Shown here: piece by piece, positions 1,083 to 23,127 of the stretch
How the letters are laid out: each line of letters opens with the position of its first letter
Position numbering within the stretch: the first letter of the stretch is position 1
Virus record (IMG/VR): IMGVR_UViG_3300030328_002851
Span: 1 to 27,277 of that record
Direction: 5' to 3' (one strand)
Source: a virus
Length of the DNA stretch: 27,277 bases
Program-made: the position numbers and the translations under genes
Notes under the pieces: generated by a model
Told to the model about the DNA's origin: nothing
Databases searched by the model: none
Seen by the model: only the letters and a program-made list of their open reading frames with translations

Positions 1083-3236
1083 ATGGTTATGAATGAAGTA
1101 TATACAGGAGCAGGGTTAACGGCAACGATGATACCCGAAATAGATTTTGAGTTATCAGAATTGGTAGGCACAACAGCAGGAAGCATAAAAGGAATTAGTA
1201 CAACTAATAGTCAAAAAACATTAACATGGACTGTTAGTAATACCAAGCGATTAGTCCCAGATATTTACAAGGGATGTGTTGCTAAATTAACAGGGTATAA
1301 TTCTAGTGGTACTGCATTAAATAAAGTGTACAATTTACTTATTAAATCAAATACAGAGAATACTATTGTGTTTAATGAAGCATTATCTACTACTGCATCT
1401 GATGTATGGGCATGTACTATACTTGCTTTTGGTTCACCTGTTTTAGCACCAAGCGATACTGCGATTACAGGTAGTGGAGTAACAGCAATTACTGTTACAA
1501 ATGATGGAGCAGGGATACCTTACGCTGCTAATCAATCACTATCCATAAGTGGTGGTGGCGGTTCTGGTGCTGCTGCTAGTTATACACTTACTAAAGATAA
1601 ACACCAAATTACTACTACTGCTGAAAGCGGAACTAATTATGATGGTAAATGGATTAAGATTGAGGTTGCTGCCGCTACAACAATAAAGTATGTGTTTTGG
1701 TTTGATATAGATAATGCTGGTGCATCTGTTCCTTCACATGGAGTAAGTGGCCCAACAAATGTTGAAATCAATACAATAGATTCAAGTGATGCAGCAGGTA
1801 CAGTTGCTACAAAAATTGCTACTGTTATGAATGCACAAACAGGCTTAACTGCCACTGCTTCAGGCAATAAAATTACTGTTGAATCAACTAGTGGTGGTGC
1901 AGTTGGTGCAGTTACTCAAGCATCATCACCGCCATTAACTGTTGTTCAATTAGTTGAAGGTGGAGAAATAGATGCTGTGAGTATTAGTGCAGCAGGTAGT
2001 GGATATAGTAGTGCTTCTGTTGCTAACATAACATCAGGAAGTACAAATGCCACATTTACTGCAACAGTTGGAACAACAACTGCACCAAATCTATTAGCCG
2101 ATAATTGGTTGGGTTTGGTAAATACAATTACTCCACCTACTGTTGAAGCCGAAATGAAACAAATGAATATGGCGTTAGGAGGAACTAGAAACTTTAATTA
2201 TCAATACAAAGGTGCTGAAACTCCTGGTTCTGCTAGTTTAGATGTATCTGCATCTCATGGAATGTGGTTGTACTATGCACTAGGTAATATTAGTTACGCT
2301 ACAAGTGGTGCAGTAAGTAGCAATGACTTATCATCAGGATTAATTAATGATGCAGCGTATGGTAAAGATTCTGGTTCAAATATATACAGAGTAAAAAATG
2401 GAAGTATATTACCTCCTGTACCTGCGGGTACAACTCTTGCAGATTATCACGAAATCACAGGGCCACTAACTTATACTTTTACAGAAAGTAATTCAGGTGA
2501 TTTACCTTCATTTGCATTAGAAGTAACAGCAGAAAAAGGAAATGTTAACTATGCTACTCAAGATACTACTGATGATAAAAGAAAACATTACAGTAAAATA
2601 TACACAGGGCTTCAAGTTAATTCATTAACAATGACTTTTGAAGAAGGACAAGATGTTAAAATGAGCGTAGATGCAATGTGTAGAAAGGTACATGATGCTG
2701 CTTCAAACTATATACCAAAGGCAGGTTTGACTGATAATCTAAATCTATTTAATAGAAAGGCATTGCCTAATGGTACTTTAACTCAAGATGATACAAAACC
2801 GTATATGTTTTCTGATGGTTCTATCAAAGCATTTGGTCAATCATTTGCTAGAATTAAAAGCGGAACGTTAACTGTTAATAATGGATTAACAGCACAGAGA
2901 TTTGTTGGTAATTATGATAGAACAATAGTTTCTGCTATGACCGCAGGACAAAGAACATATGAAGTTCAATTGACTATGTTAATTACTGATAATACGATGT
3001 GGGATGAGTTGAGAAAACAAAACGAAACAGGTTCTTCTATTGGTGATATTGAATTAGAGTTTGAAAAGGATGATAATACAAATGATAAGATTGTAATTAA
3101 ACTAAGAGACTATCTTACTACTGCTGTTGAAGTTCCATTCCCCGATGATAAAGCAGCATTAGAGGTAAGTATGACTCTACAAGCCCGCACTTTAGCATCA
3201 TGCACATATACAGGAAAGTGGATAATACAAGGATAA
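1083..3236 (+). CDS. Major tail (tube) protein with inserted beta modules
   Basis: This encodes 717 residues. The C-terminal half (about 340-717) has the look of siphovirus tail-tube proteins: PPTVEAEMKQMNMALGG, SHGMWLYYALG, LPSFALEVTAEKG, the strand SLTMTFEEGQDVKMSVDAM, then IKSGTLTVNNGL, YEVQLTMLITDNTMWDEL and a final ALEVSMTLQARTL strand. Tube subunits are often 150-350 residues, so this one is unusually large. The extra mass is mostly at about 131-331: two 'GSGY' type glycine-rich modules (131-170, 293-330) flanking a nested beta domain (171-291) that resembles the repeats of the LamG protein at 6242-8917. These parts would probably decorate the outside of the tail. It is followed by a chaperone pair and a tape measure, the normal siphovirus order. 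The tube call is fairly firm; the inserted-domain boundaries are estimates. Confidence 0.75.
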   Translation: MVMNEVYTGAGLTATMIPEIDFELSELVGTTAGSIKGISTTNSQKTLTWTVSNTKRLVPDIYKGCVAKLTGYNSSGTALNKVYNLLIKSNTENTIVFNEALSTTASDVWACTILAFGSPVLAPSDTAITGSGVTAITVTNDGAGIPYAANQSLSISGGGGSGAAASYTLTKDKHQITTTAESGTNYDGKWIKIEVAAATTIKYVFWFDIDNAGASVPSHGVSGPTNVEINTIDSSDAAGTVATKIATVMNAQTGLTATASGNKITVESTSGGAVGAVTQASSPPLTVVQLVEGGEIDAVSISAAGSGYSSASVANITSGSTNATFTATVGTTTAPNLLADNWLGLVNTITPPTVEAEMKQMNMALGGTRNFNYQYKGAETPGSASLDVSASHGMWLYYALGNISYATSGAVSSNDLSSGLINDAAYGKDSGSNIYRVKNGSILPPVPAGTTLADYHEITGPLTYTFTESNSGDLPSFALEVTAEKGNVNYATQDTTDDKRKHYSKIYTGLQVNSLTMTFEEGQDVKMSVDAMCRKVHDAASNYIPKAGLTDNLNLFNRKALPNGTLTQDDTKPYMFSDGSIKAFGQSFARIKSGTLTVNNGLTAQRFVGNYDRTIVSAMTAGQRTYEVQLTMLITDNTMWDELRKQNETGSSIGDIELEFEKDDNTNDKIVIKLRDYLTTAVEVPFPDDKAALEVSMTLQARTLASCTYTGKWIIQG

Positions 3237-3386: not shown

Positions 3387-3410
3387 AAAAAATTGAAGGT
3401 GGAAAAAAAT

Positions 3411-3764
3411 ATGGAAAATATAGTAAACGATAAGAACAGGCTATTTGCCAAAATAGAAACAGAATGTTATCATTTGAAAGTAGATGCTGAATCAGATGAT
3501 ATATTGAAGGTGTGGGTTAAAGAACCTACATGGCTTCAAGTAGAACAAGCATTATCTAGTATAATGAAACTAGATTCAAACAATGGTATGGAGTTAGACC
3601 TAAACGCAATGTACAAGTTTATGGTTGAAAACTTCATAGAAAAAACAGAACCCGCATTGTCTTCATTAGAGTTAATGAGATTGTCTCCTTATATTGGCAA
3701 TCAATTAAAAGATGTACTACCTAACCCGTTTGAAGATATGTTAGGGGCTGATACGGGAAATTAG
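3411..3764 (+). CDS. Tail assembly chaperone, short form (gpG-like)
   Basis: This encodes 117 residues from ATG 3411, which is 8 nt after AAGGTGG (3396-3402). The upstream in-frame TTG 3393 would overlap that site and is rejected. The protein is acidic and helical (EPTWLQVEQALSSIMKL, PALSSLELMRLSPYIG) and ends in ...LGADTGN before TAG. It lies between tail-tube and tape-measure genes, the place of the lambda gpG/gpGT chaperones that hold the tape measure during tail assembly. Its last two sense codons lie in the heptamer G GGA AAT (3755-3761), just before the stop, and an open -1 frame continues to 3964. No sequence motif alone identifies gpG; position and the frameshift arrangement together make the call strong. 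Confidence 0.8.
   Translation: MENIVNDKNRLFAKIETECYHLKVDAESDDILKVWVKEPTWLQVEQALSSIMKLDSNNGMELDLNAMYKFMVENFIEKTEPALSSLELMRLSPYIGNQLKDVLPNPFEDMLGADTGN
3755..3761 (+). promoter_or_regulatory. Predicted -1 ribosomal frameshift site GGGAAAT
   Basis: Read in the zero frame this is G GGA AAT, an X XXY YYZ slippery heptamer that differs only in the last base from GGGAAAG, the known site of lambda G/GT. The zero-frame TAG (3762-3764) follows at once. The -1 frame is closed upstream by TGA 3749-3751 and open downstream from 3752, so slippage has to occur in this narrow interval, exactly where the heptamer lies. Confidence 0.8.
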
Positions 3765-3964
3765 AATATAGGCGGGCATTTAAAGGTGGACAAGTAACTC
3801 CGCAGGTCGGGGCGAAGGTTGCACTTTACGGTTATTGCCGAGCGTTCAACGTTAACCCAATGGATGCCTACAATACTCCCGCAAAATTAATATTAGAAAT
3901 GTTATCAATACATGGAGAAGCAAAAAAGATAGAACAAGAAGAAATAGAAAAAGCGGTTAAGTGA
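3761..3964 (+). CDS. Tail assembly chaperone, frameshift extension (T domain of gpGT-like protein)
   Basis: This is the -1 frame read after slippage at 3755-3761, giving 67 residues (LEYRRAFKGG ... EEIEKAVK) and ending in TGA 3962-3964. Joined to the 117-residue short form it makes a 184-residue GT-like protein. The extension holds a helical segment with YGYCRAFNVNPMDAY, then PAKLILEMLSIHGEA and a charged C-terminal helix; T domains of other phages similarly end in a helix and bind the tape measure or tail-tube subunits. There is no start codon with a ribosome-binding site at its beginning, and without frameshifting the stretch 3765-3960 would be an unexplained gap. An internal ATG near 3860 could begin a very short separate product, which is less likely. 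The local sequence is visibly richer in G and C than its neighbours. Confidence 0.75.
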   Translation, partial: LEYRRAFKGGQVTPQVGAKVALYGYCRAFNVNPMDAYNTPAKLILEMLSIHGEAKKIEQEEIEKAVK

Positions 3965-3969
3965 TATAG

Positions 3970-5490
3970 ATGGCAACACCATTAAGTGATTTAGGTAAAG
4001 ATATCGAAAGAATAGACGAAGCAATGGCAGGTGCTTTAACTAGATTCGGTAAAATGGGTACAGCAGGACAAAAGGGTTGGACTGCGTTTGCTAGAATTAC
4101 TTCTGGTACTTTAGTCTGGAGATTACAGGCAAGATTGCGTTCTGTAATGAATGTTGTAGAAATAATGACTGATAGACAGGCTAAATATAACATAGAACTT
4201 GCTGATTCTTTTAAGAAAATGGGTGAATTAAAAAACGCTACTAAAAATATTAGAGAGTTTGCCAAAGAGTTTGATGCCATACAAGATATGTTTGTAAATA
4301 AAGCAATAAATAGCAAAGGAGTAATAGACGCACTATCAGGTAATGAAATATTTGACGGTTTGATGCATAAATATGAAAATAATATTGGAAAGGTATTAGA
4401 AAAAGGTAAAGAGTTTTTAGCAGACCAAACAAATAGAGCAGAAAAAGCAATGGCTATGGATAGAGCAGGTGGATTCATACAATATTATGCTAAAGCAGGA
4501 ATGAAAAAGGGAAAAGGTCTACTTGGTGCTTTACAACCTGAGATGAGAAGAACTCTTCATCAATCATTAACCGACCCCTATATTGGCCCACTTACAAAAC
4601 CTGGAGGTGGTATAGATACTATAAAGTCAATAGAAGTGGGTTTTGGAAAGGCATTTAGGTCTCCTAAGATATTTACTAAGATTTTAGGTGGGTTAAGGCC
4701 AACAGCAATTAAACGTTTTGTTAAAAGAAACTTACAAATGGCAACATGGTCTAAAAGAAATAGAAGTTTTGTTAAAAGAAGAGATAAACTATTTATGAAG
4801 TTAGGTAGTGGATTAAAATTATTACCTAAATTAGTAGGTTTAAGTCTTGGTGCTTTAGGTACGTTTATGTTATATGGTGCTGCTGTTTTAATTGGTTTAC
4901 TTCTTGTTATAGCAGTAATCAAAAAGGCTTGGCCATTAATGAAAAAGCAAATGGCATTTATAAATAAGTTTGCAGGTATCACAAAAGCATTCTTTTGGGG
5001 AATAAGTAGAATGTTAGAAGGTCTAATGATGGTATTATCTGGATTATGGGAAGGAGATTTAATTAAAGTATTGAAAGGATTCTGGTGGTATATAATACCT
5101 GGAGTATTAGCAGTAGGATATTCAATTATAGCAGGTATTGCTGCATTACTAGTTACTTTAGCAACATCAATAGTAGTAGGAATAGGACAAGCATTTGCAC
5201 ATGTAATGGGTAAAATTGGAAGTTATATTCCAGGTATGGCAACAGGTGGTTTAGTAAACAAGGGTGGTATAGCAGTTGTTGGAGAAAGAGGCCCAGAATT
5301 AGTTTCCTTACCTACTGGTTCAAGGGTTCATCCTAATGGATATGGCCCATCTGGTAGCACCGTAATCAACGTTAATGTTACAGGTAGAGTAGGTGCTTCT
5401 GATGCAGAAATAAGAGATATAGCAAATAAGGTTGCTAGAGAAATTAATTTAAGAATGAACACTAGAGGAACAATTACAATGGGTGGCTAA
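3970..5490 (+). CDS. Tape measure protein
   Basis: This encodes 506 residues from ATG 3970, 4 nt after GTGAT, which also contains the stop of the GT extension. The N-terminal half is helical and basic. Two long hydrophobic stretches follow, at about 284-317 and 372-407, as in many tape measures that later insert into the host membrane. The C-terminal part has the familiar MATGGLVNKGG and VVGERGPELVSLPTGS region (about 425-450) found near the end of siphovirus tape measures. Tape-measure length sets tail length at roughly 0.15 nm per residue in known phages, so about 75 nm is expected here: a short tail for such large tip proteins. Position after the G/GT chaperones supports the call. No peptidase or lysozyme motif was seen. 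Confidence 0.88.
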   Translation: MATPLSDLGKDIERIDEAMAGALTRFGKMGTAGQKGWTAFARITSGTLVWRLQARLRSVMNVVEIMTDRQAKYNIELADSFKKMGELKNATKNIREFAKEFDAIQDMFVNKAINSKGVIDALSGNEIFDGLMHKYENNIGKVLEKGKEFLADQTNRAEKAMAMDRAGGFIQYYAKAGMKKGKGLLGALQPEMRRTLHQSLTDPYIGPLTKPGGGIDTIKSIEVGFGKAFRSPKIFTKILGGLRPTAIKRFVKRNLQMATWSKRNRSFVKRRDKLFMKLGSGLKLLPKLVGLSLGALGTFMLYGAAVLIGLLLVIAVIKKAWPLMKKQMAFINKFAGITKAFFWGISRMLEGLMMVLSGLWEGDLIKVLKGFWWYIIPGVLAVGYSIIAGIAALLVTLATSIVVGIGQAFAHVMGKIGSYIPGMATGGLVNKGGIAVVGERGPELVSLPTGSRVHPNGYGPSGSTVINVNVTGRVGASDAEIRDIANKVAREINLRMNTRGTITMGG

Positions 5491-8919: not shown

Positions 8920-11900
8920 GTGGCTGAAAATTACTATTATGTATTGAATGCAGGTAAAAATCAATCAGAAACATTGAATCATACATATGCACAGAGGGAT
9001 GCTGCGTATCCAAGCACAGCATTTTTCTCTACATCTGTCAATCCGATTATAAAAAATCCTGGCATTCCATCGTCTGGAAACTTCGCAGGTGTATCGGGTT
9101 TATCTGCTAACTTTTTTGAGATTAGAATTGCACCATATGATTTAGATGGGAATGGGAGTATAGAAAATAAAGAACCTATGATTTCTGGTGATAGCCATAC
9201 AGGTTTAGTAAATAGAATACATCCAGCAGGTTATTCAGATACTATTACTGATGCTAATCATATAAGCAAACACGCTTCAAACTTACAAGATACTAAATCA
9301 AATAGAATTAGATTAAAGACAGAAACCGGAGGAACATTAGCAGTAGGTAGTAATGGATTAAATATGGATATTAATAACTTTGATTATTTTGTTTTGATTA
9401 ATCCAGAAGTAACAGGCAACGATGGAATAGTAAGCATTAGACCCCATTTTGCTAAAATAAAGGATATTATACAGTTTGATAATTATGGTGATGGTATAGA
9501 GTTTGAGCCTCGTTATCCTTCACCTATACCAAAAGGCACTAAGTTTGAAATATATAAAGGGCCGAATAAAGCAAATACAAATGTAGTGGCTGTATCTTAT
9601 GGGTTAAGAGGTAATACTACTAGTAGTAGTTCTATTATTACAGACAAATATGATGTTAGTAATGTAGTTAGTAGACCAACATGGTATTTTTATGAAGATA
9701 GATTAGTAAATAAAAATCAATTAGATTACGATACTAAATATCAATTAACTAGTTGTAGGTTCTTTAAGAATTGGACTTCTTTAGGTGGTACTGGTTTGAA
9801 TACTAGTGACGGTACTTACCACACTAATACAATAGCAAGTAGTGTGTTAAATGATACAAACTTACAAGGACACACTATATGGGGTAGCGATGGTAGTGGG
9901 GGAGGAATAAAAAGAAATATTGGTAACTTAGTTTCCGCACATCCTTCTGCTCCTGTGCTAGACGATGTAAAGTATGATATTCCTACTGCATCTGATGTAA
10001 TAGGTGGGGCAACTGCCTTTACATTATATTATGGAAGAACAGTATGTCAAAGTGTTTTCTTAACAGAACCAGAATATGGTACTATAATAAGTGATTTAGG
10101 GTCTAAAGGATTAGATGCTGAAATAGTAGATAATATGAAAGAAAAGGATAGAACAGAAATAAATTATGAAACTGGTTCTGCGTCTGCTTTTGACCCCATA
10201 ATTTGGAAGTCTAGTTTCCCTAATTATAAAAGAAACTCTAGTGATAGAAATGTAAATCATAGTAGTTATAGTAATAACACAAACTATACACACGTTCATG
10301 CAGATTTAGTAGGCCCAAAAAGATACTTACATTATCAATCTTCACACATGAAAAACAATGGTATTCCTGCTACATTACATAACATGGTTAATTTACCAAG
10401 AAATAAGGCTTCTCAATTAGCAAGAGCAAGTATATTAGATAATAATGGTATTTGTTTTCTTAAACTAAAAAAGGGTGCTAAATATATAGTAAGAAACAAC
10501 GTTAAAACAGGTGTTTTTGGTGCATATAAATTACCATTCTCTGCTACTAGTAGTGTTGTTGGTGGGGCTTACACAATAACATTGAATCAAATATCAGACG
10601 CATTTGATTGTAGAGATGACTCATTTATTAAAATAGGAGACTCCCTTATAGTAAGAGGCCACTCTTATATTATATCGGCTATTGCTGCACCTAATACTAC
10701 ATCTATGACACAATCATTAACAGTAAATAAAATAAAAAGAGTAGGAGATTCTACTTACTCAACAATGTCATCAATTGACTCTTTTACTTTAGAAGATATT
10801 TATATTAATACGTGGAATGGATTATTGGTTGGTGATTTACCAATAGATACCGAAGCAGTATATAGCAATAATGTGTTTCAAAGATTAACAATAAATGGGA
10901 ACACTATATCAAAGGATAAAACTAATCTCAGTAAAAGTAAATTGACTATTTTATCGGGAGAGTTTTCTGGTATTGATATACCGATTGATTATGGTAATTC
11001 TATAACTAATCATATTAAACTTAAACAACCTAATAAGCAAATGTATATTCCAGACTCAATAGCGTCTAGTAATAATCCATCATTTATAAATTATATAACA
11101 GGTAGTTATGGAATAGATGAAGAGATATTTTCTGGTACTGTTGAAGATACATATCCTAAACTTATCGAGGGGACACCTACATATGAAATAACAGGTAGGG
11201 ATGGCTTATCTAGATTATTGGATAATACAGTAAGTAAAAATCTAGGATATACTAATGAGTTACTATACTCTAGTTTGATACCAATGTTTGATAGCACCCT
11301 TACAGTAGATGTTTCTGGTACAATAGCCACAGGCTCTAAAACATTTAACACCGTTTCATCACCATCTTCAGGTCGAGTTAATGCTTCTTCTCTTAAAAAA
11401 TATGATTTGTTATTCAATGCTGCCACAATGAAATTAATAGGAGAGGTACAAAGTACGTCTGGAACTACTGTTACTATGAGCGACAATGCATTGATTAGTG
11501 GAAATAACAATATTCCTATAAAGGCAGTTAGTTTAAGTGATATCACAACAAATAAGTTTTATTTATCTGGTGTTAAATCTATAAATACAAACCCGATGGG
11601 TACATCTAAACAAACTGATTTAGTTTCGGCAGGAGATAAAGGGCTAGTATTTATTGACGGAGATGAATTGATATATGATACAAATAGAGGACAGTCCACT
11701 AAAAACTTAGCATATACTTCTTCTCAGGGTTCTTATCAAGAAGATAAATCATTGGGGTATGACGTTACTAATGTAAGAGGAATAACTGATAATGATTCTA
11801 GATTTGCATTCAAACTTGGAGATGAAAGTACACCTATTGTAACTGAAAAATCGAAGATTATGCCCTCTTCTACATCTTATTTTTCTATATTAGATATAAG

Positions 11901-14900
11901 TGAAAAAACAGGAGCAGATACAACCATAACAGTTGCACCTACTTTCCCTGTTGTATTAGGGAGTATTGAACTAAACTCAAGCGATACGAGATTTAATAAT
12001 GAAAATGAAGCATATATTTATTTCTTAAACACAAATATACCATATGGAGGATATATACACAAACTAAAGGGGGTTTATGGTGGTGAAAACTATACTCCAA
12101 GTTTGACATTTAAATACCATGATTTACAAAGATTTAGTTCGGGTACTTTATCAATTGATAATAGTTTTAACTCACACAAATCAATATATAATAACTTAAG
12201 AGATTTATCAATAAGTGGTGCTTCTCCTGCTTATGGAATTAAAGGGTATTCAAACACATTATACAATACAGCAGAAATGGCAAATCTATTAACTAATGAT
12301 ATGAACCCAATAGAAGGCAGTAATATAATTAATTCAGATTACAATGAGTTTTACAAAGAGAAAGTAGGAAACTATAAGTTTAAACTATCTGATAATTCTA
12401 AAATAACGCCACCCAACCAATTTGTTAAAGGATTAACTGTTGATACTTTAGTGTATGCAGGTGGTGATATGACTGGTGGTTCACAACATGCAAATAATGC
12501 TAATTTACAAATACAAGCATCTATGGTAACAGGTGATGGCCCAGGTGACGTTGTAAATAATGGTAGTAATTATTTAGTAAACATAGACCCTAAAGTAAAG
12601 AACTATGAGTTAATGGCAATAGGAGATATATATCCAGAATCTATACTAAGACACAATCATTTAGGGTTTAGTAGTAAACCATTTGCTTCTTATGGAATGC
12701 TTTTAGAATCTAACCCAACTAAAGGTAGTTCTGTATCTCATAGTAATTATACAGGAAGTTCTAAAGAAACAATATTAAAAGATAGCAGTTATCAAACTGC
12801 AAATATAACTAGTGCAAGCATATCTACTAATCAAATTAAAAGATGGGGTGTAATGCGTTTAGTTGAAGCAACTTATGATTGGCATTTTAATCCTGTGGAT
12901 GCAGAAACAATGCCAAAAACTTCTACTATACCAGAATTACAAAACTTTCAGTATTGGAGATTTAGTGAACCTGTTCAACCAACAACAGGTAATGGTACTG
13001 CTATTACATATGTAGATACCGACTACGATGAGGGAGAAATATTCTTTAAGACAAATACTAACGCAGAATCTTCATCAAATAGACAGACTGTTACCTTTGA
13101 GCCTTTTGATATATTATATAATGCCACTACTGGCAGTATTATTGGTATGTATAAAGGGACAGCCAATGTATCTTTATATGGTTCAAATGATTCTAGTAAT
13201 TATGTTAGTGGTAATTGGATTTTATTAATGACTGAATCGAGTAATATGCCTTTATATGTATTAAGACAGGAAAAAGTAACCATGTTATCACAGACTTATG
13301 GACTTAGTGCCCCTAATAATATACAAGTCCTAGCACACCGTTGGCCTGGGCTTATGCCATTCAATCTTTATTCTGATACAGGAAACGGAATAGACACACT
13401 AGCAGAAAACCCGATTAAAATGACTAATGTATATCTTGCTAGAGAACCAATAGATAAAGATTATTTTGATTATAATACACTTACAGGAGGTGTAGACCAA
13501 GACTTTGACCCACAGAATATACTAATTCCTTTAATTTCAAGAGTGGATAGAAATAAAAATAGTACAGAAAAAAAATACTACGCAATATCAGCATGGCATG
13601 ATAGTGAACAATGGGAACATGCTAGGGCTAATTTTGCAAGTAATGATGCCCCTACTTATTATCACATATCAAGAGTAATGGATGCTTTAGCACAAGAAAC
13701 CTTTGATGCTGATTTGAGTGTATCAAATCAAAATACAAAGCCTAGAGAGTATTTGATGGGGTTAGGACACATCTATGATAATTGTACTGCTATATTTAGA
13801 GACATCAAAAACAGTATTGGCTCTATGGAATATAACCTAGACAATACTTCTGCTCCTTTAGATTTGGCTTCATTGGCTGACTATACTACCTTCGACCCCC
13901 ATACTGCGGAAGATGAGCAAGACCAACATGGCTTGAATGTTATGATTAAAAGAAAGGGAAAAAATGCATCATTTGTAGGTACTAGAACAGTAGACCGTAT
14001 TCTAAAAGATGAAGAAGGTAGGGCTTCACCAACAAGAACGTCACGTCATCAGGCTAACAACACAAATACAGGTGAACTATTTAATGCTCAAATGTTCGTT
14101 AAACCTAAGTTTAATCTTCTAGGTGCAACAAGTTCGACTCTTGCTTCTAAAGGATATACTCATTCGGACAAAACATTGACATTTAGTATGAATGATAATT
14201 CTACACACAGTTGGTTAGCATTTGTTAATAACTTAGAAGGATACTATTTAGTTTCAGATAAACTCAGCAATAGTCATTTACCTTATAGTGCAAAAACAAC
14301 TACAACGGGGGCATTAGCAGGTAACGCTACTTCTATTCCTTTGACTGATGCAAGTAGTTTTCCAAGTTCTGGAAAAATTAGTATGTATGGGCATTATCAC
14401 GATGTATCGGGTAATGATGTTTTTACTGATGAAATTATAACATACACAGGAAAAAGCGGAAATACCTTAACGGGATGTGTTAGAAATATAGCAGGTAATG
14501 GAGTAACAGATGGTGGATTCTACGAAACCAATGATAGTGCTACAACTGTTAGACTGATAACTGATGTTAAGGAAGGAACTCCTGTATATATCAGTAGAAT
14601 AACATCTCATTCGGTAATATCCGAAAGTGCTGCATCGGCAATTGATGTGGCAGGAGCAAGTGCTGGAAGTACATCACCTAGAACTAAACATACAATAGTT
14701 TTAGATAAAACACTTAATTTAACTACTCATGGGCATACCTTTAGATTGATGAGAATTGCAGATACAACATTTGACGATACTCCTGGTTATTTCAAATTAA
14801 ATCATATGTTTGATACTGGCCTACAATACGATAAAACAACTGACAATCTTCTAACAGCATCAGCAGGAACTACAAATGAATATAGCGAAAATATATACTC

Positions 14901-16296
14901 AATGTTTTTAGTTGCAGATATAGATACTAAAAATGATTACTTAGAAAGAAGGGAATTATCAAACATTGATATGTTTACAAATGGAACTACATATGATTGT
15001 TATATAACTGATGGTAATGTTTCACAGAGAAAATCGCTAACATATGATTCATCACAGTATAGATTTAATTATGAAGGTGAATTAAATGGAGTGGGGATGG
15101 TTTCATTTGGAGAAACCTTTACTTTGACTAGTTCTTCTGATATAAGTATTGAACCAGAAAGACTTTACATAGGCGTTACTGCTTCCTTTGGTACTGATGC
15201 TACTGTTGCTATTGAAGAAATATTAGAAGAAAATAGTATTGATACAAATCTAAAAAATAAAAATATCACATACACAGGGAACATAGTTTCTTCCGTAAGT
15301 GGAGCAAATATTACACTACAAAGTAATGCATCTGGATTATTAAATAATGATTTTATATACACACAGGATGGAGAATATATAGGTCAAATAGCGTCTATAA
15401 GTAACAATGTTATTACAATAAAAGATGCAGATGGAGATAGCACATATGATTTATACACTACTCCTGTTGCCAATGATGAAATAACATTATATACGAAAAA
15501 ACCATTTGTATTAACTACCAACTTTAACGAAAGTAATGTGTTTAATAGCATAAACCACTTATCTAGTAAAGCGGGGCTTGAATATATATTTAATGATAAA
15601 AAAATAGAACTTAGAGATATGGACAATTATCAAACTAAAAGAACATTTTCTCTAAAGTATAACAATGCTTCTAATCTAATTTCCGTTGAAAATAATGAAA
15701 GTCTATTTGATGAGGTATCAAAAGTAATAGTTATAGGGGATAGAGTAAAGGCTACTGTTGAAGACCCGTCTGCAAACGTAACAAGAACAATCAAGCACAT
15801 AGATTCCAATATTAAAGATGTGAAAGAAGCAAAAGTAAAGGCTGAACAAATATTAGAAATACATAGACAAGCACCAAAGAAAATAACTTTAAAAATGCAA
15901 AAGAAAGGATATGAAACTATGAAACCAGGTGATTTAATATCGTTGGATTTCCCTAATCATAATATTCCTGCTGATGATTACATTGTGTTTGAGATAGAAA
16001 ATGCTCTACAACAAATATCAAGCATAACAGTCGGAACATATAATAAACAAATAGCAGAAAGACTAACAGAATTACAATTTAATCAAAGTGATGGGTTTAC
16101 AAATATATTAACTTCTAATTCAACAGTTGAGTTAACTACTCGATTTTTAGACGATGAGTTAATATTTAGAAACCAATCATTGACATATAGAATAACGGAA
16201 GCGGGCGGCGGAGCAATGGGGTATGGTACTCCTATGGGATACACTTCTACCGTAAACTATGGTGTAGAAACAACAACAGAAACAGGAGGAATATAA
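8920..16296 (+). CDS. Giant tail-tip / baseplate hub protein
   Basis: This encodes 2458 residues from GTG 8920. Near the N-terminus, residues 74-85 (DLDGNGSIENKE) match an EF-hand or dockerin-type calcium loop. Hub-like sequence appears in two separated places. The first is about 640-775 (LTILSGEFSGIDI, YEITGRDGLSRLLDNTV). The second is about 2205-2390 (INHLSSKAGLEYIF, then a helix rich in E and K, then ETMKPGDLISLDFP and YIVFEIENALQQISS), resembling gpD/gp27/gp44-type tail hubs. About 1,400 residues are inserted between. They include small 'IG(E/M/Q)' beta modules near 800-870 and 1390-1450 (a third lies at 2115-2195) and a SFPSSG...EIITYTGKSGNTLTG module near 1798-1860. No peptidase, lysozyme or depolymerase active site was recognised. 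The role is probably to close the tail tube and carry the fibres; much of the middle is unidentified. Confidence 0.65.
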   Translation: MAENYYYVLNAGKNQSETLNHTYAQRDAAYPSTAFFSTSVNPIIKNPGIPSSGNFAGVSGLSANFFEIRIAPYDLDGNGSIENKEPMISGDSHTGLVNRIHPAGYSDTITDANHISKHASNLQDTKSNRIRLKTETGGTLAVGSNGLNMDINNFDYFVLINPEVTGNDGIVSIRPHFAKIKDIIQFDNYGDGIEFEPRYPSPIPKGTKFEIYKGPNKANTNVVAVSYGLRGNTTSSSSIITDKYDVSNVVSRPTWYFYEDRLVNKNQLDYDTKYQLTSCRFFKNWTSLGGTGLNTSDGTYHTNTIASSVLNDTNLQGHTIWGSDGSGGGIKRNIGNLVSAHPSAPVLDDVKYDIPTASDVIGGATAFTLYYGRTVCQSVFLTEPEYGTIISDLGSKGLDAEIVDNMKEKDRTEINYETGSASAFDPIIWKSSFPNYKRNSSDRNVNHSSYSNNTNYTHVHADLVGPKRYLHYQSSHMKNNGIPATLHNMVNLPRNKASQLARASILDNNGICFLKLKKGAKYIVRNNVKTGVFGAYKLPFSATSSVVGGAYTITLNQISDAFDCRDDSFIKIGDSLIVRGHSYIISAIAAPNTTSMTQSLTVNKIKRVGDSTYSTMSSIDSFTLEDIYINTWNGLLVGDLPIDTEAVYSNNVFQRLTINGNTISKDKTNLSKSKLTILSGEFSGIDIPIDYGNSITNHIKLKQPNKQMYIPDSIASSNNPSFINYITGSYGIDEEIFSGTVEDTYPKLIEGTPTYEITGRDGLSRLLDNTVSKNLGYTNELLYSSLIPMFDSTLTVDVSGTIATGSKTFNTVSSPSSGRVNASSLKKYDLLFNAATMKLIGEVQSTSGTTVTMSDNALISGNNNIPIKAVSLSDITTNKFYLSGVKSINTNPMGTSKQTDLVSAGDKGLVFIDGDELIYDTNRGQSTKNLAYTSSQGSYQEDKSLGYDVTNVRGITDNDSRFAFKLGDESTPIVTEKSKIMPSSTSYFSILDISEKTGADTTITVAPTFPVVLGSIELNSSDTRFNNENEAYIYFLNTNIPYGGYIHKLKGVYGGENYTPSLTFKYHDLQRFSSGTLSIDNSFNSHKSIYNNLRDLSISGASPAYGIKGYSNTLYNTAEMANLLTNDMNPIEGSNIINSDYNEFYKEKVGNYKFKLSDNSKITPPNQFVKGLTVDTLVYAGGDMTGGSQHANNANLQIQASMVTGDGPGDVVNNGSNYLVNIDPKVKNYELMAIGDIYPESILRHNHLGFSSKPFASYGMLLESNPTKGSSVSHSNYTGSSKETILKDSSYQTANITSASISTNQIKRWGVMRLVEATYDWHFNPVDAETMPKTSTIPELQNFQYWRFSEPVQPTTGNGTAITYVDTDYDEGEIFFKTNTNAESSSNRQTVTFEPFDILYNATTGSIIGMYKGTANVSLYGSNDSSNYVSGNWILLMTESSNMPLYVLRQEKVTMLSQTYGLSAPNNIQVLAHRWPGLMPFNLYSDTGNGIDTLAENPIKMTNVYLAREPIDKDYFDYNTLTGGVDQDFDPQNILIPLISRVDRNKNSTEKKYYAISAWHDSEQWEHARANFASNDAPTYYHISRVMDALAQETFDADLSVSNQNTKPREYLMGLGHIYDNCTAIFRDIKNSIGSMEYNLDNTSAPLDLASLADYTTFDPHTAEDEQDQHGLNVMIKRKGKNASFVGTRTVDRILKDEEGRASPTRTSRHQANNTNTGELFNAQMFVKPKFNLLGATSSTLASKGYTHSDKTLTFSMNDNSTHSWLAFVNNLEGYYLVSDKLSNSHLPYSAKTTTTGALAGNATSIPLTDASSFPSSGKISMYGHYHDVSGNDVFTDEIITYTGKSGNTLTGCVRNIAGNGVTDGGFYETNDSATTVRLITDVKEGTPVYISRITSHSVISESAASAIDVAGASAGSTSPRTKHTIVLDKTLNLTTHGHTFRLMRIADTTFDDTPGYFKLNHMFDTGLQYDKTTDNLLTASAGTTNEYSENIYSMFLVADIDTKNDYLERRELSNIDMFTNGTTYDCYITDGNVSQRKSLTYDSSQYRFNYEGELNGVGMVSFGETFTLTSSSDISIEPERLYIGVTASFGTDATVAIEEILEENSIDTNLKNKNITYTGNIVSSVSGANITLQSNASGLLNNDFIYTQDGEYIGQIASISNNVITIKDADGDSTYDLYTTPVANDEITLYTKKPFVLTTNFNESNVFNSINHLSSKAGLEYIFNDKKIELRDMDNYQTKRTFSLKYNNASNLISVENNESLFDEVSKVIVIGDRVKATVEDPSANVTRTIKHIDSNIKDVKEAKVKAEQILEIHRQAPKKITLKMQKKGYETMKPGDLISLDFPNHNIPADDYIVFEIENALQQISSITVGTYNKQIAERLTELQFNQSDGFTNILTSNSTVELTTRFLDDELIFRNQSLTYRITEAGGGAMGYGTPMGYTSTVNYGVETTTETGGI

Positions 16297-16297
16297 C

Positions 16298-16675
16298 ATG
16301 ATAGTAGATACAGGAAAAAAAGCACTTTTGGATTTAGCAATTGCATCAAATCAATTCAAATATATTGATGTTGGTGATGGTGGTGATGATACATCTGTAT
16401 CTCAAACTAGCCTAGATAATAGTGTTTTGACATCTACTAATACTACAACAATAGCAGATGGTTCGTACAAAAAGGAAGTATCTCCAACTAGAGTTGGTAA
16501 CAATTTAGTATATGAAATATCACTATCTAGTACAGATTTAGCATCAAATGTTATTTCAGAACTAGGGGTTTTCAATAATGCGGGTGTTATGTTAAGTAGA
16601 GTTAATTTTAAGCCTATCGGCCCACTCGCAGCAAGTGAAACTATTAGTTTTACATTTAGAATGGAGATGGCATAA
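16298..16675 (+). CDS. Putative tail-fibre adaptor / collar-like protein
   Basis: This encodes 125 residues from ATG 16298, 7 nt after GGAGGA, with only one base between it and the hub stop. The order is a helix KKALLDLAIA, a FKYIDVGDGGDD loop, strands NLVYEISLS, then ISELGVFNNAGVMLSRVNF and a final SFTFRMEMA strand. The 'IxVGDGG ... ISELGVFNxxGxMLxRxxFxPI ... E.ISFTF' pattern is typical of small phage proteins or fibre N-terminal domains that attach tail fibres to the baseplate. It ends in a TAATG overlap with the giant fibre gene, so the two are translationally coupled and probably made together. Family membership was judged by eye only. Confidence 0.55.
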   Translation: MIVDTGKKALLDLAIASNQFKYIDVGDGGDDTSVSQTSLDNSVLTSTNTTTIADGSYKKEVSPTRVGNNLVYEISLSSTDLASNVISELGVFNNAGVMLSRVNFKPIGPLAASETISFTFRMEMA

Positions 16676-19600
16676 TGCCCCTTAATAATCCAAAGTTCAT
16701 CAGTACGTTAGCCTCGTCTATCACAGGCACTAGTGGAACTAATGATGATGACAGACTAAAAGATGGGACTGATACCCTAAATGCTAATTTAATTAATTCT
16801 CTAAACATTGCTAGTGCAGGGTCTTTTGTTGCTAGTGGAGGAAATATAACTATAACAGCAGGTTCTACATATAGTGCATATGCGTTAACCGAAATAAAAT
16901 ACTTTAGAGATGGTAAATATAAGACACTCGCTGCTGTATCTGCTCAAGAACCAACATGGGCTAAGAATACTGCAAATGATTGGTTTGGATTAATTGTGAT
17001 TGCTGCTAATGATTCAATTGCTTTTAGAGGAAATACTGCACTAGGAAATACAATCGTAGATGGAGCATTACCACTTGAAGGAGATATACCTATTGCAGCA
17101 GTTCAAATATCTAAATCACTAGCAAATGATGCTACAAATAGAAAGGTTCAGTTTTTAGGTATGAACAAACTTAATTCAGAGTTTACTGCTGTTGATAATG
17201 GTAATGTTAGACTTACTATAAACAAAGGCGGTACTTTAACTCACAGACCTTCTTCTACTGATTATACAATAACGCTACCTTCGGCAACAGGTACTCTTGC
17301 CTTATCTGGAGCAAGCGTAAATTATTCACAATTAACAGGTACACACCCAAATATAGATGCTGATAAAATAACAAGTGGTACAATTCCAGATGCCCGTATT
17401 GCATCTGCGTCTACTTGGAATGCTAAACAAGCAGCATTAACATTTGGTAAGGCAAACACTAATGCATTAAAGTTAGAAGAAGCAGTTGCTACTAATGATA
17501 TATTACAAGCAGGTACTAATCAAGTAAAAGGATTAACATATGCACAATTAAAATCTGCATTGACTATTGGGCTTACTGATGTTAGTGGTGATTTAGATGA
17601 TATAGCAGATGGTAGTAATCATAAAAAAATACCAAATGCAGATGCTACTAAAATAAGCAATCTAACTGTTAGTGGAGCAATTGACTTAGATGCTATGAAA
17701 GTTAAATCAGACCGTTTAACTGTTACAGGTGCTATTGATGTAGATGCAATTAACACTAAAGTTGCAGGTATAGCAGCAGGTGCTACTGTTGGTGCTACAT
17801 CTTCTCAAATATCAGATATTGCTGCAAATACTGCTAAGACAGGAATAACTTCTAGCCAAGCAAGTGCTATAACTGCAAACACTGCCAAAACAGGAATAAC
17901 CACTTCCCAAGCAAGTGCAATTACAGCGAATACAGCAAAGGTTGGTATTACTACTACTCAAGCAGATGCCATAACTGCAAACTCAGCAAAGGTTGGTATT
18001 ACTAGTACACAGGCTTCTGATATTACTGCGGCTAAAACTAGAACAGATACATTAACTGATGCGTATATTGAAACAAAGGCTGCGAATAAAATAGATGCAT
18101 TACTTGGTGCTGATTCAAACGCCATTGATACATTAGCACAATTAGAAGATTATTTATTGGATAGTAGTGTATCGGGTGGAATAATACAATCATTAGCAGG
18201 TAAAGTACCTACTACTACAACAGTTAACGGTCATGCCTTATCAGGAAATATCGCAATTACTGCGGCAAATGTAGGATTGGGTAATGTAACAGATGGAGCA
18301 ACGGTTGGTGCAACTACTGCTCAAGCAAATGCAATAGCAGCGAATACTGCTAAAACAGGAATTACAACATCACAAGCAAATGCAATTACTGCAAACACGG
18401 CTAAGACAGGCATTACAACAACGCAAGCCGATGCTATTACAGCGAATACTGCTAAAACAGGTATTACATCTACACAAGCAGGTCATATTACTACTAACAA
18501 TGCTAAAGTAGGAATAACAACAACACAGGCAGACGCAATTACTGCTAATACTTCTAAAGTTGGCATTACTACATCACAAGCAAATGCGATTACTGCTAAC
18601 ACAGCAAAAACAGGAATAACTAGTAGTCAAGCATCAGCAATTACTGCTAATACAGCAAAAACAGGAATAAGTTCGTCACAAGCAACTGCAATAACTGTTA
18701 ATACTGCTAAACCAAAAATATTCTATGCTACTACTGCACCAACATCACTTGCAGAAGGAGATTTATGGCATAAGACAGATGATGACAATCTAGTATATCG
18801 GGCTAATGCAGCAGGAGTTAATAGCATTGTAACATCTGGTGATGGATGGTATGTACATTTATCTCCAACAAGCAAACTAAAATCTCCTGTTAATATAAAT
18901 GGGGTATCTTTTGATGGTTCTGCTAACGTAACTGTTGCGGCAGCAGCAGGTACATTAACAGGTAACACTTTAGCAGCAGGAATAACTTCTTCATCTCTAA
19001 CAGCAGTTGGAACAATAGCAACTGGAACATGGAATGCAACTGCTATTGCTAAAAGTAAGGTTTCTACTAGTGGAACTTGGGCTGATGGTGATATTGCAGA
19101 ATCAAGTATAACTCAACACGAAGCAGCAATATCAATAGGCAATAGTCAACTATCTGGTGCTACTAATTTAGGTAAGGCAATATTAGGTGCTACTAATTTA
19201 GGTAATAGTGAAACTAAGTTTTTGAAAATAGCAACTGATGGTAGCGGTAATCATACTATTACTGCTAGAACAGATACACAAATAAGAGGCGATATTGGTG
19301 CAGGAACAAGTAATCTTGCAGTAGGAACTGGCTCAGGAGATGCACTGGCAGGTAATACTTCAATACCTGCTGATTTAACTGTAAGCGGTGCAGGTACAGT
19401 TCATGCAAATAATTACACTAATACTACATATTCAGTAATGGACACTAACAATAATTATGCAGCAGGATTAGTTAAAGCAGGTAATGCAACTCACGGTAAT
19501 AAGTTCCTTAGACAAGATGGAGAATGGCATGCACCTCCATCTGAATCTGGTGGAATAACAAGTTTAGCAGCAGATTCAACACCACAATTAGGTGGGGATT

Positions 19601-22600
19601 TAGATGCTAATGGAAACAAAATAAAAGCAATAGGTAGTGCTGATTTAATCTTTGAAAAAGATGATGGTCTTTTCTTATTCAAAGATGTTGATTCGGCTAA
19701 CGCTAGTGTTTCAATTGGGCCAAGTTCTATGAAGTTTGATTTTCAAACAGAAGGAGGTGCTAGTGGTGGGGAGGCTGTATTACAATATGTAGATTCTGGA
19801 GGTACTCCTAGAAACTTTATAACTGCTTCTTCCGATACAGTAGCAATAGAAAATAGAGCAGCAAACGGAGAAGTTCATGTTTATGGAAATACATCTACTG
19901 CGGGTAGTAGTGGTAGAACCTTAATAACCACATTTGCAGATACAGCAGTAACAACACAAAAGAAAATTATTGTTTCTGCTCAAGGAGAAGGAATATCATT
20001 TGCTGATTCAGATGAATCCCATTTTGTTACACTAAAGCCTCATGCTACTACAACATCAAATTACGATATTAAACTCCCTGCTGCACAAGGCGGTGCTAAT
20101 ACTATATTGAAGAATGATGGTTCTGGTAACTTATCTTGGGCTGCTGATAATGATACTACTTATGCTAATTTAGCAGCACTTGATAGTACAGCAAATACTA
20201 AACTATCAGGAATTGAAACTAATGCTACTGCTGACCAAACTGCGGCAGAAATCAGAACACTAGTTGAATCCGCCTCTGATTCAAATGTATTCACCGATGC
20301 TGACCACAGCAAATTAAATGGTATAGAGGCTAGTGCAACAGCCGACCAAACAGCCGCAGAAATAAGGACATTAGTAGAATCTGCTTCAGACTCTAATGTA
20401 TTTACAGATGCAGACCATACTAAATTAAACGGTATTGAAGCATCTGCAACAGCAGACCAAACGGCTTCTGAGATAACTGCTTTACTGGATGATGTTGCTA
20501 GTTATACTCTTGGAACTACTGGTTCAGGAACAATAACTATTGCTAATGATTTAGTTGTTACAGGAACTACAACTACCAATAATGTAGAGACTGTAAGTAC
20601 AAGCAATGGTGTAGTGTTTGAGGGGGCGGCTGCTGATGGACACGATATGATTCTTAAGTCTCTAGTAGCAGATAGCAATAAAACAATAAATCTACCAAAT
20701 GCAGCAGGAACAGTATTACTAACTGATGGTTCAGGAGCGTCATTAACAGCATTAAATGGTTCACAAGTTACATCAGGAACAGTAGCGGCTGCTAGAATAG
20801 CGGCTCTTGCTACAAGTAAAATTACATCTGGGACATTTGCTAATGCTAGAATATCTCAAGGAAGTGTAACTCAACATCAAGGAGCATTATCAATTACCGA
20901 ATCTCAGATAAGCGACTTAGGTTCATACATTACTGCTGTTAGGTCTGTAACTGCTGGTGGAAATACATTAGCAAGTAGTGAGACTCTAGCATTTACAGCA
21001 GGTTCTAATGTAACAATTACAGAAAGTGCGGGTGCAGTAACAATCGCATCAACAGATACAAATACAACTTATTCTGTTGGTGATGGAGGTCTAACGCAAA
21101 ACAATTTTACTAATACTCTTAAGTCTAAACTTGATAATATAGCAGCATCAGCAAATAACTATTCTCTTCCTACTGCTGCATCAGGTACATTAGGTGGAGT
21201 AAAAGTAGGAACTAATCTTAGTATAGATGGTAATGGTGTTCTTTCCTCTACTAATACAAATCAACTAACTACTTTTGACATACATGATGGAGATGGAACT
21301 CAAGTAACTATGGCTCATAATAGAGAGTTAAAGTTTGTAGAAGGTGCGGGTATAGACATTAACTTTACAGACGAAACACCTGGAAGTAATGAAGACCCAT
21401 TTGATTTAACTTTCAAAGTTGCAGATAATGGTATAGGAGCAGACCAATTAAATGTTAGTGGTAATGGAACATCAGGATATGTATTAACTTCAGATGGTGA
21501 TGGAACATTTAGTTGGTCTGCAAAAACAACAAATACAAACACTACATATAGTGCAGGTACAGGTATAACCCTTTCATCTACAACATTTAGCCATACTGCA
21601 CATACAGGAGAAGTAACTGGTTCTACTGCTTTAACAATAGCAGACGATGTAGTTGATGAAGCAAACCTAAAGATTTCTAACTCAGGAAGTAACGGGCAAT
21701 TCCTATCTAAACAATCTGGTAATACAGGTGGATTAACTTGGGCTACTGCGGGTGATGTTACATTAACAGGAAGTGAAACTCTAACAAACAAATCCCTAAC
21801 AAGCCCAACCTTAACAGGAACAGTTACGGCAACTGCAACAATCAATGTTAGTGGAAATAACAAGTTGGGAATATCAGATGGTGGTGCAGGTTCACCCACA
21901 CTTAGATTTGTTGATGATACAGACACAGGTATCTATCGCCCTGCGAGTGGACAGTTAGGATTCACATCTAATGCAACCGCACAGGTTATTTTCAAAGATG
22001 GAGCAATAGAGCCTGTCACCGATGATGATATTGATTTGGGGACTTCATCTCTTAAGTACAAGAATGCATACTTTGGATTAGTTGATGCTGAAAACTTCAA
22101 AGTGAATGGTGGTCAAGGTTCTGACGGTCAAGTTCTAACTTCAACAGGAAGTGGTGTTGCTTGGGAAGATGCAGCAGGTGGTGCATCAGGGGCACAAACA
22201 GGAATTACTTCAGTATTAAATGCAAGTTTAGTTGTTGGTAGAGATGCAGATAACAAAATAAGTTTTGATACTGATAACGAAATAAGATTTAGAGCAAACG
22301 GTGCTAATGTATTCAAGGTAGTAGAAAACGATATAATTCCTTTTTCTGATAATGATATTAGTTTAGGTTCATCATCTTACAGATTCAAAAATGCTTATTT
22401 TAATAGCGGGGTTGTTGTTGGTGATGGAACACAACCAATCTCCGCAGGTCAATTGACTGTTGTTCAAGAAGACTCTGATGATTATGGTCATACTCTTCTT
22501 TTGATGGAAGCAGGTGCTACAAGAGGCCCAATAATGACCATGTATAGAAATACTGCATCTCCGGCGGCAGGTGATAGATTAGGTTCTATCAGATTTAATG

Positions 22601-23127
22601 GTGAAGATGGTGGCGGTTCTGCAAGGGACTATGCTAAGATAGAAGCAAAATCTGTTGCAGTTGGAGCAGGTTCACATACAGGTCAGTTAATATTCTCAAC
22701 AACTATTGGTGCTAGTATAACTGATGTTATCTCAATAGATGGTACAACAGGAGGTGCTTATGGTGGATTGTTATACAATCAAACAGGAATAAAAGAACTG
22801 AGTAATATTGTTTCTGCTACAAGTACAGCAAACAATGGCTACATTACATTACTAACAATACCATCAACTTCGTTTTCTGCAATCAAAGCATCTGTTCATA
22901 TTACAGATTCTTCATCTAATGAGGTACAGACAATGGATATTATGTGTCACCATCACGGTTCAGGTGTAGATTATACTTCGTATGGTATAATTTATGATGG
23001 GGCTGCCGCAATAGGAGAAATAGAAGTTAGTGCAGACGGTTCTGATAATATCGTTATTAAGTTCAAGAATACACAAGGTTCAACGGTGAATCTTGCAGGG
23101 AGCATACATGCAGTATGCCATCCATGA
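16675..23127 (+). CDS. Giant repeat-rich tail fibre protein
   Basis: This encodes 2150 residues from ATG 16675 (TAATG overlap; GGAGATGG upstream). The N-terminal part (1-230) has GTNDDDRLKDGTDTL and a beta-rich domain. Thirteen copies of a 17-residue repeat (TGITSSQASAITANTAK type) follow at about 372-456 and 544-679. Then come two full copies and part of a third copy of a 37-residue repeat (ATADQTAAEIRTL..., FTDADHSKLNGIEAS) from 1184, and paired motifs such as DDDIDLGTSSLKYKNAYF and DNDISLGSSSYRFKNAYF in the last quarter. Such low-complexity repeats are known from long trimeric fibres of marine phages. The C-terminal 120 residues (KASVHITDSS, TMDIMCHHHGSG, SIHAVCHP) are non-repetitive and may be the receptor-binding tip. 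No intramolecular chaperone (peptidase S74) motif was seen. Confidence 0.8.
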   Translation: MPLNNPKFISTLASSITGTSGTNDDDRLKDGTDTLNANLINSLNIASAGSFVASGGNITITAGSTYSAYALTEIKYFRDGKYKTLAAVSAQEPTWAKNTANDWFGLIVIAANDSIAFRGNTALGNTIVDGALPLEGDIPIAAVQISKSLANDATNRKVQFLGMNKLNSEFTAVDNGNVRLTINKGGTLTHRPSSTDYTITLPSATGTLALSGASVNYSQLTGTHPNIDADKITSGTIPDARIASASTWNAKQAALTFGKANTNALKLEEAVATNDILQAGTNQVKGLTYAQLKSALTIGLTDVSGDLDDIADGSNHKKIPNADATKISNLTVSGAIDLDAMKVKSDRLTVTGAIDVDAINTKVAGIAAGATVGATSSQISDIAANTAKTGITSSQASAITANTAKTGITTSQASAITANTAKVGITTTQADAITANSAKVGITSTQASDITAAKTRTDTLTDAYIETKAANKIDALLGADSNAIDTLAQLEDYLLDSSVSGGIIQSLAGKVPTTTTVNGHALSGNIAITAANVGLGNVTDGATVGATTAQANAIAANTAKTGITTSQANAITANTAKTGITTTQADAITANTAKTGITSTQAGHITTNNAKVGITTTQADAITANTSKVGITTSQANAITANTAKTGITSSQASAITANTAKTGISSSQATAITVNTAKPKIFYATTAPTSLAEGDLWHKTDDDNLVYRANAAGVNSIVTSGDGWYVHLSPTSKLKSPVNINGVSFDGSANVTVAAAAGTLTGNTLAAGITSSSLTAVGTIATGTWNATAIAKSKVSTSGTWADGDIAESSITQHEAAISIGNSQLSGATNLGKAILGATNLGNSETKFLKIATDGSGNHTITARTDTQIRGDIGAGTSNLAVGTGSGDALAGNTSIPADLTVSGAGTVHANNYTNTTYSVMDTNNNYAAGLVKAGNATHGNKFLRQDGEWHAPPSESGGITSLAADSTPQLGGDLDANGNKIKAIGSADLIFEKDDGLFLFKDVDSANASVSIGPSSMKFDFQTEGGASGGEAVLQYVDSGGTPRNFITASSDTVAIENRAANGEVHVYGNTSTAGSSGRTLITTFADTAVTTQKKIIVSAQGEGISFADSDESHFVTLKPHATTTSNYDIKLPAAQGGANTILKNDGSGNLSWAADNDTTYANLAALDSTANTKLSGIETNATADQTAAEIRTLVESASDSNVFTDADHSKLNGIEASATADQTAAEIRTLVESASDSNVFTDADHTKLNGIEASATADQTASEITALLDDVASYTLGTTGSGTITIANDLVVTGTTTTNNVETVSTSNGVVFEGAAADGHDMILKSLVADSNKTINLPNAAGTVLLTDGSGASLTALNGSQVTSGTVAAARIAALATSKITSGTFANARISQGSVTQHQGALSITESQISDLGSYITAVRSVTAGGNTLASSETLAFTAGSNVTITESAGAVTIASTDTNTTYSVGDGGLTQNNFTNTLKSKLDNIAASANNYSLPTAASGTLGGVKVGTNLSIDGNGVLSSTNTNQLTTFDIHDGDGTQVTMAHNRELKFVEGAGIDINFTDETPGSNEDPFDLTFKVADNGIGADQLNVSGNGTSGYVLTSDGDGTFSWSAKTTNTNTTYSAGTGITLSSTTFSHTAHTGEVTGSTALTIADDVVDEANLKISNSGSNGQFLSKQSGNTGGLTWATAGDVTLTGSETLTNKSLTSPTLTGTVTATATINVSGNNKLGISDGGAGSPTLRFVDDTDTGIYRPASGQLGFTSNATAQVIFKDGAIEPVTDDDIDLGTSSLKYKNAYFGLVDAENFKVNGGQGSDGQVLTSTGSGVAWEDAAGGASGAQTGITSVLNASLVVGRDADNKISFDTDNEIRFRANGANVFKVVENDIIPFSDNDISLGSSSYRFKNAYFNSGVVVGDGTQPISAGQLTVVQEDSDDYGHTLLLMEAGATRGPIMTMYRNTASPAAGDRLGSIRFNGEDGGGSARDYAKIEAKSVAVGAGSHTGQLIFSTTIGASITDVISIDGTTGGAYGGLLYNQTGIKELSNIVSATSTANNGYITLLTIPSTSFSAIKASVHITDSSSNEVQTMDIMCHHHGSGVDYTSYGIIYDGAAAIGEIEVSADGSDNIVIKFKNTQGSTVNLAGSIHAVCHP
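17788..18042 (+). repeat. Five tandem 51-bp coding repeats in the fibre gene
   Basis: These are five in-phase units of 51 bp (17 codons), from GATSSQISDIAANTAK-like to ITSTQASDITAAKTR. Protein sequence is well kept but the third codon positions differ strongly between copies. Confidence 0.85.
18304..18711 (+). repeat. Eight tandem 51-bp coding repeats in the fibre gene
   Basis: This is the second array of the same 17-residue unit, eight copies, ending in ISSSQATAITVNTAK. It is separated from the first array by about 260 bp that encode a non-repeat linker containing LLGADSNAIDTLAQLEDYL. Synonymous variation is again widespread between copies. Confidence 0.85.
19156..19205 (+). repeat. Exact 20-nt direct repeat, 30-nt period
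   Basis: GGTGCTACTAATTTAGGTAA occurs at 19156-19175 and again at 19186-19205, encoding GATNLGK / GATNLGN in the fibre. Unlike the 51-bp units the copies are identical at the DNA level, suggesting a recent duplication. Confidence 0.75.
20224..20460 (+). repeat. 111-bp coding repeats in the fibre gene
   Basis: Two full 37-residue units (20224-20334, 20335-20445) and the beginning of a third, each starting with ATADQT and containing NVFTDADH.KLNGIEAS. Similar 'ATADQT...FTDAD..KL.GIEA' repeats are known in fibres of marine bacteriophages. Confidence 0.8.

Follow-up and report, generated by a model that had tools for sequence, protein, structure and literature searches.

The analysed stretch of DNA, referred to here as the window, comprises 27,277 nt (positions 1-27,277 of IMGVR_UViG_3300030328_002851), with the feature under study at 3,411-3,964. 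The following elements were assigned:

1083..3236, + strand: major tail tube protein gene (Pfam Phage_tube_2, E 1.1e-18; matches in phage records to haloarchaeal viruses only)
3397..3402, + strand: AGGTGG ribosome-binding site of the G-like gene (sequence; the same AGGTGG precedes the start in all relatives)
3411..3764, + strand: tail assembly chaperone, short (G-like) form, 117 aa, TAG stop at 3762-3764 (phrog_25860, predicted fold, gene position)
3743..3752, + strand: Shine-Dalgarno-like element AGGGGCUGAU, putative stimulator upstream of the slip site (anti-SD pairing, frozen synonymous sites)
3749..3751, + strand: TGA closing the -1 frame upstream, which limits the shift to 3752-3764 (sequence)
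3755..3761, + strand: slippery heptamer G_GGA_AAT (X_XXY_YYZ conserved in 66/66 loci)
3761..3964, + strand: T-like domain, the extension in the -1 frame, 67 codons followed by TGA 3962-3964 (open frame, omega, phrog_9001)
3970..5490, + strand: tape measure protein gene (PHROG tape measure families; 79 homologous loci)

The order tail tube, chaperone, tape measure corresponds to the placement of G/G-T in lambda. The G-like gene was taken to start at ATG 3411, behind AGGTGG, and not at TTG 3393 of the mechanical ORF; the equivalent ATG behind AGGTGG is the start in all relatives, which supports this choice. At 717 aa, the tail tube protein is of unusual length, and its Phage_tube_2 match is confined to the C-terminal half, the N-terminal half looking like an inserted or added domain. 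Two very long ORFs were also observed in the window: one at 8920-16296 (2458 aa), with no PHROG match, and one at 16675-23127 (2150 aa), with many near-identical 'AITANTAKTGITSSQA' repeats.

Codons 3750-3764 read GAT ACG GGA AAT TAG, so that the heptamer abuts the stop codon of the G-like gene. After a slip of one base back, the -1 frame is open for 67 codons (LEYRR...EKAVK in translation). A preliminary description of this DNA had pointed to a G GGA AAT heptamer placed directly before the stop of the gene preceding the tape measure, to a 67-codon -1 frame open to 3962, and to the upstream TGA as confining slippage to 3752-3764; all three were confirmed. The stated one-base difference from the lambda site GGGAAAG is also correct and concerns the last base only.

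The G-like proteins were identified by family and by fold. A match to phrog_25860 ('tail assembly chaperone') was obtained for 39/39 members. The predicted fold of the window's protein (mean pLDDT 83) matched the tail assembly chaperone of Haloarcula hispanica tailed virus 2 (HHTV-2) with an E value of 5.8e-7 and a TM score of 0.70; Bacillus phage chaperones and Mu FS-gp41 gave weaker fold matches. Solved structures gave no match to the fold model, and a sequence search of phage records with G gave none either; the link of G to haloviruses is visible only by direct comparison (HCTV-5) and by fold (HHTV-2). For the -1 extension, phrog_9001 (also 'tail assembly chaperone') was matched in 17/33 relatives, with a best E value of 2.2e-7. 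The window's own extension matched PHROG weakly (E 0.027), and its family assignment rests on the relatives. Since G matches phrog_25860 and the -1 frame phrog_9001, both frames carry chaperone parts, and both are homologous to known tail assembly chaperones. The extension profile also matched HCTV-5 and HHTV-2 weakly, and the extension is likely homologous to theirs.

The virus very probably infects uncultured ocean archaea. Among 50,697 phage records searched, its tail tube protein matches haloarchaeal viruses only. The relatives carry a two-part (split) PolB, RFC and TFB, and searches of control genomes for RFC and TFB gave matches in archaea only. PCNA, primase, MCM and Cpn60 families, which would be expected of magroviruses, were not found in the relatives, and the window itself is a 27 kb fragment without PolB, RFC or TFB genes. 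The same trio, split PolB, RFC and TFB, is reported for Aoguangviridae, a family of magroviruses whose genome map also labels a tail assembly chaperone (PMC10768690). The archaeal, magrovirus-like assignment is based on the presence of these three genes in the relatives, and the best reading is a magrovirus-like virus (Magrovirales) of Poseidoniales. A host search in genomes returned one contig, L086 (NZMJ01000011.1, 10.5 kb), in a MAG labelled Maricaulis. It carries the same chaperone and frameshift site at 72% identity, and is probably a misbinned archaeal virus contig in a bacterial bin.

The conservation of the heptamer was assayed in relatives collected by a tape measure protein scan, which yielded 79 related viral loci. 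The comparison set consisted of 66 loci, namely the window and 65 relatives with a full G homologue (55-93% identical), or 49 non-redundant loci after removal of near-copies. Exactly one in-frame X_XXY_YYZ heptamer was found in the overlap, in register, in 66/66 loci, close to the 3' end of G as in lambda. It occurred as GGGAAAC (45 loci), GGGAAAA (8), GGGAAAT (7) and AAAAAAA (6). Elsewhere in these genes, in-frame heptamers of this type occupy 0.45% of codon positions (31/6854), giving a chance of roughly 2% for one heptamer in a four-codon overlap; conservation across loci removes chance occurrence. On the protein tree, at least 7 changes among the four forms are needed, 3 of them for A_AAA_AAA. 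The codon before the heptamer's GGA or AAA varies (ACG, ATG, AAG, GAG), its last base always being the one that the heptamer requires. Indeed, the changes are coupled, with G before GGA and A before AAA (ACG GGA <-> ACA AAA), so that the ability to slip is kept throughout. The glycine codon of the heptamer is frozen (GGA in 43/43), and the 0-frame stop lies, depending on the locus, between 7 and 28 nt downstream of the first heptamer base while the position of the heptamer stays constant. The comparison of homologous contigs proposed in the preliminary description thus gave a positive answer: the site is conserved and, where it is changed, both halves change together and it stays slippery.

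The second half of that comparison, an intact extension under purifying selection, was borne out as well. No stop interrupts the -1 extension in the 49 non-redundant loci, and both other frames contain stops in 49/49. In close pairs, omega was about 0.30 for the extension versus 0.16 for G, indicating that the -1 extension is under purifying selection. In the window, 105 nt of the -1 frame follow the heptamer before the first ATG, GTG or TTG, which falls near the middle of the conserved extension; among loci this first start lies 12 to 138 nt past the heptamer, and at 30 nt or less in only 27/66. The extension is therefore an open frame under coding selection without a start of its own, as in the lambda arrangement.

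A further conserved feature was found upstream of the heptamer; like the start at ATG 3411 and the hairpin of some clades described below, it had escaped the preliminary description. In 49/49 loci, a 10-mer that begins 12 nt upstream of the heptamer can base-pair with the 3' end of archaeal 16S rRNA, which we take to be AUCACCUCCU, at -8.3 to -11.7 kcal/mol. The window's element lies at the weaker end of this range (-8.3 kcal/mol); other 10-mers in these genes gave a background of -1.0 +- 2.1 kcal/mol (sd). Similar pairing energies were obtained at the starts of the window's own genes. The element reads AGGGG[A/C]UGAU in most loci; the A_AAA_AAA clade and the loci closest to it have AGGAGGAGGAU instead. 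AGGGG is separated from the heptamer by 7 nt (10 nt for the GGAGG of HCTV-5). Synonymous choice within the element is frozen, with Gly GGG in 41/41 and GAT in 30/30, whereas an invariant Gly 20 codons upstream takes all four codons. This freezing is located exactly at the element and the heptamer. An SD-like stimulator upstream of the frameshift site is established for bacterial dnaX. By analogy, the element may act as an upstream stimulator of slippage.

Downstream RNA structure was also assayed. No significant downstream structure was detected in the window (z -0.2), none was common to its clade (clade z -0.4), a single consensus fold over all clades gave no structure, and Rfam returned no match in the window. 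A hairpin emerged only when groups were folded separately: the L017 group displayed a strong one about 7 nt downstream of the heptamer (group z -8.6), at 2411-2480 of L017 and at equivalent positions in L007, L008, L010, L027, L069, L072, L078 and L086. Taken alone, the L017 hairpin folds at -23.6 kcal/mol (z -4.4). In the group, which comprises nine related sequences selected by having the hairpin and is not one tree branch, 93% of cells were paired and both-side changes occurred at 4/18 pairs, above every shuffle. These data are supportive of, but not conclusive for, a hairpin in the L017 group. Stimulators differ between clades, and the window clade, without significant downstream structure, must have stimulators that differ from those of textbook sites. 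Since this clade lacks the downstream hairpin, a classification of the window site as dnaX-like was not adopted; it works like dnaX at most in part. For the whole group of marine archaeal viruses, we lean towards the view that internal SD pairing at a fixed distance is the main and ancestral -1 stimulator, downstream hairpins having been gained only in some clades. If true, this would be, within the literature searched, the first comparatively established archaeal frameshift stimulator.

Altogether, the locus most probably encodes a programmed -1 ribosomal frameshift that makes a lambda G / G-T chaperone pair in a marine archaeal tailed virus, a reading to which we assign a probability of about 95%. 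The lambda-style frameshift put forward in the preliminary description is supported by the conserved heptamer, the intact and selected extension and the chaperone family matches. According to this model, most ribosomes would read ACG GGA AAT TAG and terminate there, yielding the 117-residue G-like chaperone. In a smaller share of ribosomes, pausing while GGA occupies the P site and AAT the A site, both tRNAs would re-pair one base back, on GGG and AAA. Reading would then continue through ...ADTGN-LEYRR... to give a 184-residue G-T fusion. As its conservation suggests, element 3743-3752 may pair with the 16S rRNA 3' end in the elongating ribosome, favouring the pause and the backward slip. In E. 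coli, GGGAAAT is probably a weaker slippery site than GGGAAAG. We infer that the fusion is made, and likewise its share relative to the short form. If the products behave as in lambda, binding to the tape measure would fall to the G part and recruitment of tail tube subunits to the T-like part, and neither part would remain in the finished tail.

The strong SD-like element just upstream could instead serve as the ribosome-binding site of a separate protein, the extension being translated by internal initiation or termination-reinitiation. The HHTV-2 record, which lists the counterparts, genes 47 and 48, as two distinct proteins, would agree with this. However, the first -1-frame start in the window comes 105 nt past the heptamer and its position varies among loci, and initiation needs neither a conserved heptamer nor coupled ACG-GGA / ACA-AAA changes. 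Internal initiation was thus rejected for lack of a usable start, and a separately made extension is very unlikely; a start codon suited to this role, named in the preliminary description as an observation that would speak against frameshifting, was not encountered.

The frame could also be changed during transcription, by slippage of RNA polymerase on a homopolymer run, and A_AAA_AAA in six relatives could suit such a process. The other 60/66 loci, including the window, carry GGGAAA[CTA]. Stretches of one base are there at most 3-4 long, too short for this candidate, which was rejected; moreover, the conserved anti-SD element makes sense in translation only. Transcriptional slippage is therefore extremely improbable. 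We consider just as improbable that the -1 frame is a non-functional leftover, produced when a frameshift mutation or a sequencing error joined or disrupted two genes. The two frames do overlap by only a few codons, but separate assemblies show the same layout, in 66 loci altogether (49 non-redundant), and the extension is under purifying selection. Programmed ribosomal frameshifting is thus the reading retained in the comparison below.

The site is a well-supported new case of an already known frameshift type. The reference system is the tail assembly chaperone frameshift of lambda G / G-T (Xu, Hendrix and Duda 2004; described in PMC5009743). As in lambda, tail tube and tape measure genes flank the chaperone gene, the -1 frame overlaps the 3' end of G, and the heptamer is of the G_GGA_AAN type; a short and an extended chaperone form are predicted here as they occur there. 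Unlike in lambda, the Z base is T and not G, a strong SD-like element stands upstream, and the translation system is archaeal.

Among archaea, a 2021 review lists one -1 frameshift tested experimentally (PMC8211752), that of Saccharolobus solfataricus fucA1 at a heptamer (PMC8211752); the other cases are a handful of predictions in haloarchaeal viruses. fucA1 shares with the present site a -1 shift on archaeal ribosomes at a heptamer, but it is a cellular gene without tail function or a conserved pair of short and long products. Frameshifting of the chaperone gene is reported or annotated for HVTV-1 and HCTV-1/2/5 (PMC5009743, PMC8211752), and predicted for Hardycor1 with an identical G_GGA_AAT (PMC7911831). 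The earlier remark that few sites are documented in archaea is therefore fair, but the group is not empty. Within the part of the primary literature that was covered, nothing linked magroviruses with frameshifting, and any claim of priority extends no further than that.

The HCTV-5 and HVTV-1 records show the same layout, an annotated joined chaperone with G_GGA_AAG, and GGAGG 10 nt before it. In HHTV-2 (KC292024.1, 4974-5486), the -1 frame that holds gene 48 is already open ahead of the stop of gene 47, and GGAGG stands 10 nt upstream of GGAAAAC TGA; genes 47/48 probably represent an unannotated frameshift at a non-canonical site. The haloarchaeal viruses thus resemble the present ones in their archaeal host, in the gene, in the heptamer types and in detectably related G parts (HCTV-5 by sequence, HHTV-2 by fold). 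They differ in that the present viruses are marine and magrovirus-like, with dozens of diverged loci, switching between G and A heptamers and an SD-like element at a fixed position in all loci. The HCTV-5 extension has about 113 codons versus 67 here.

E. coli dnaX likewise combines an SD-like element with a downstream X_XXY_YYZ heptamer, and a downstream hairpin is found in some clades here; the gene is unrelated, the window clade has no hairpin, and the SD spacing is shorter here. Comparative support is far stronger than for earlier archaeal cases. The natural variants supplied (four heptamers, two SD forms, presence or absence of the hairpin) can be used to study archaeal frame shifting, and in annotations of these viruses both frames ought to be merged into a single chaperone. 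What stands out most here is the unusually constant SD-like element at its fixed position.
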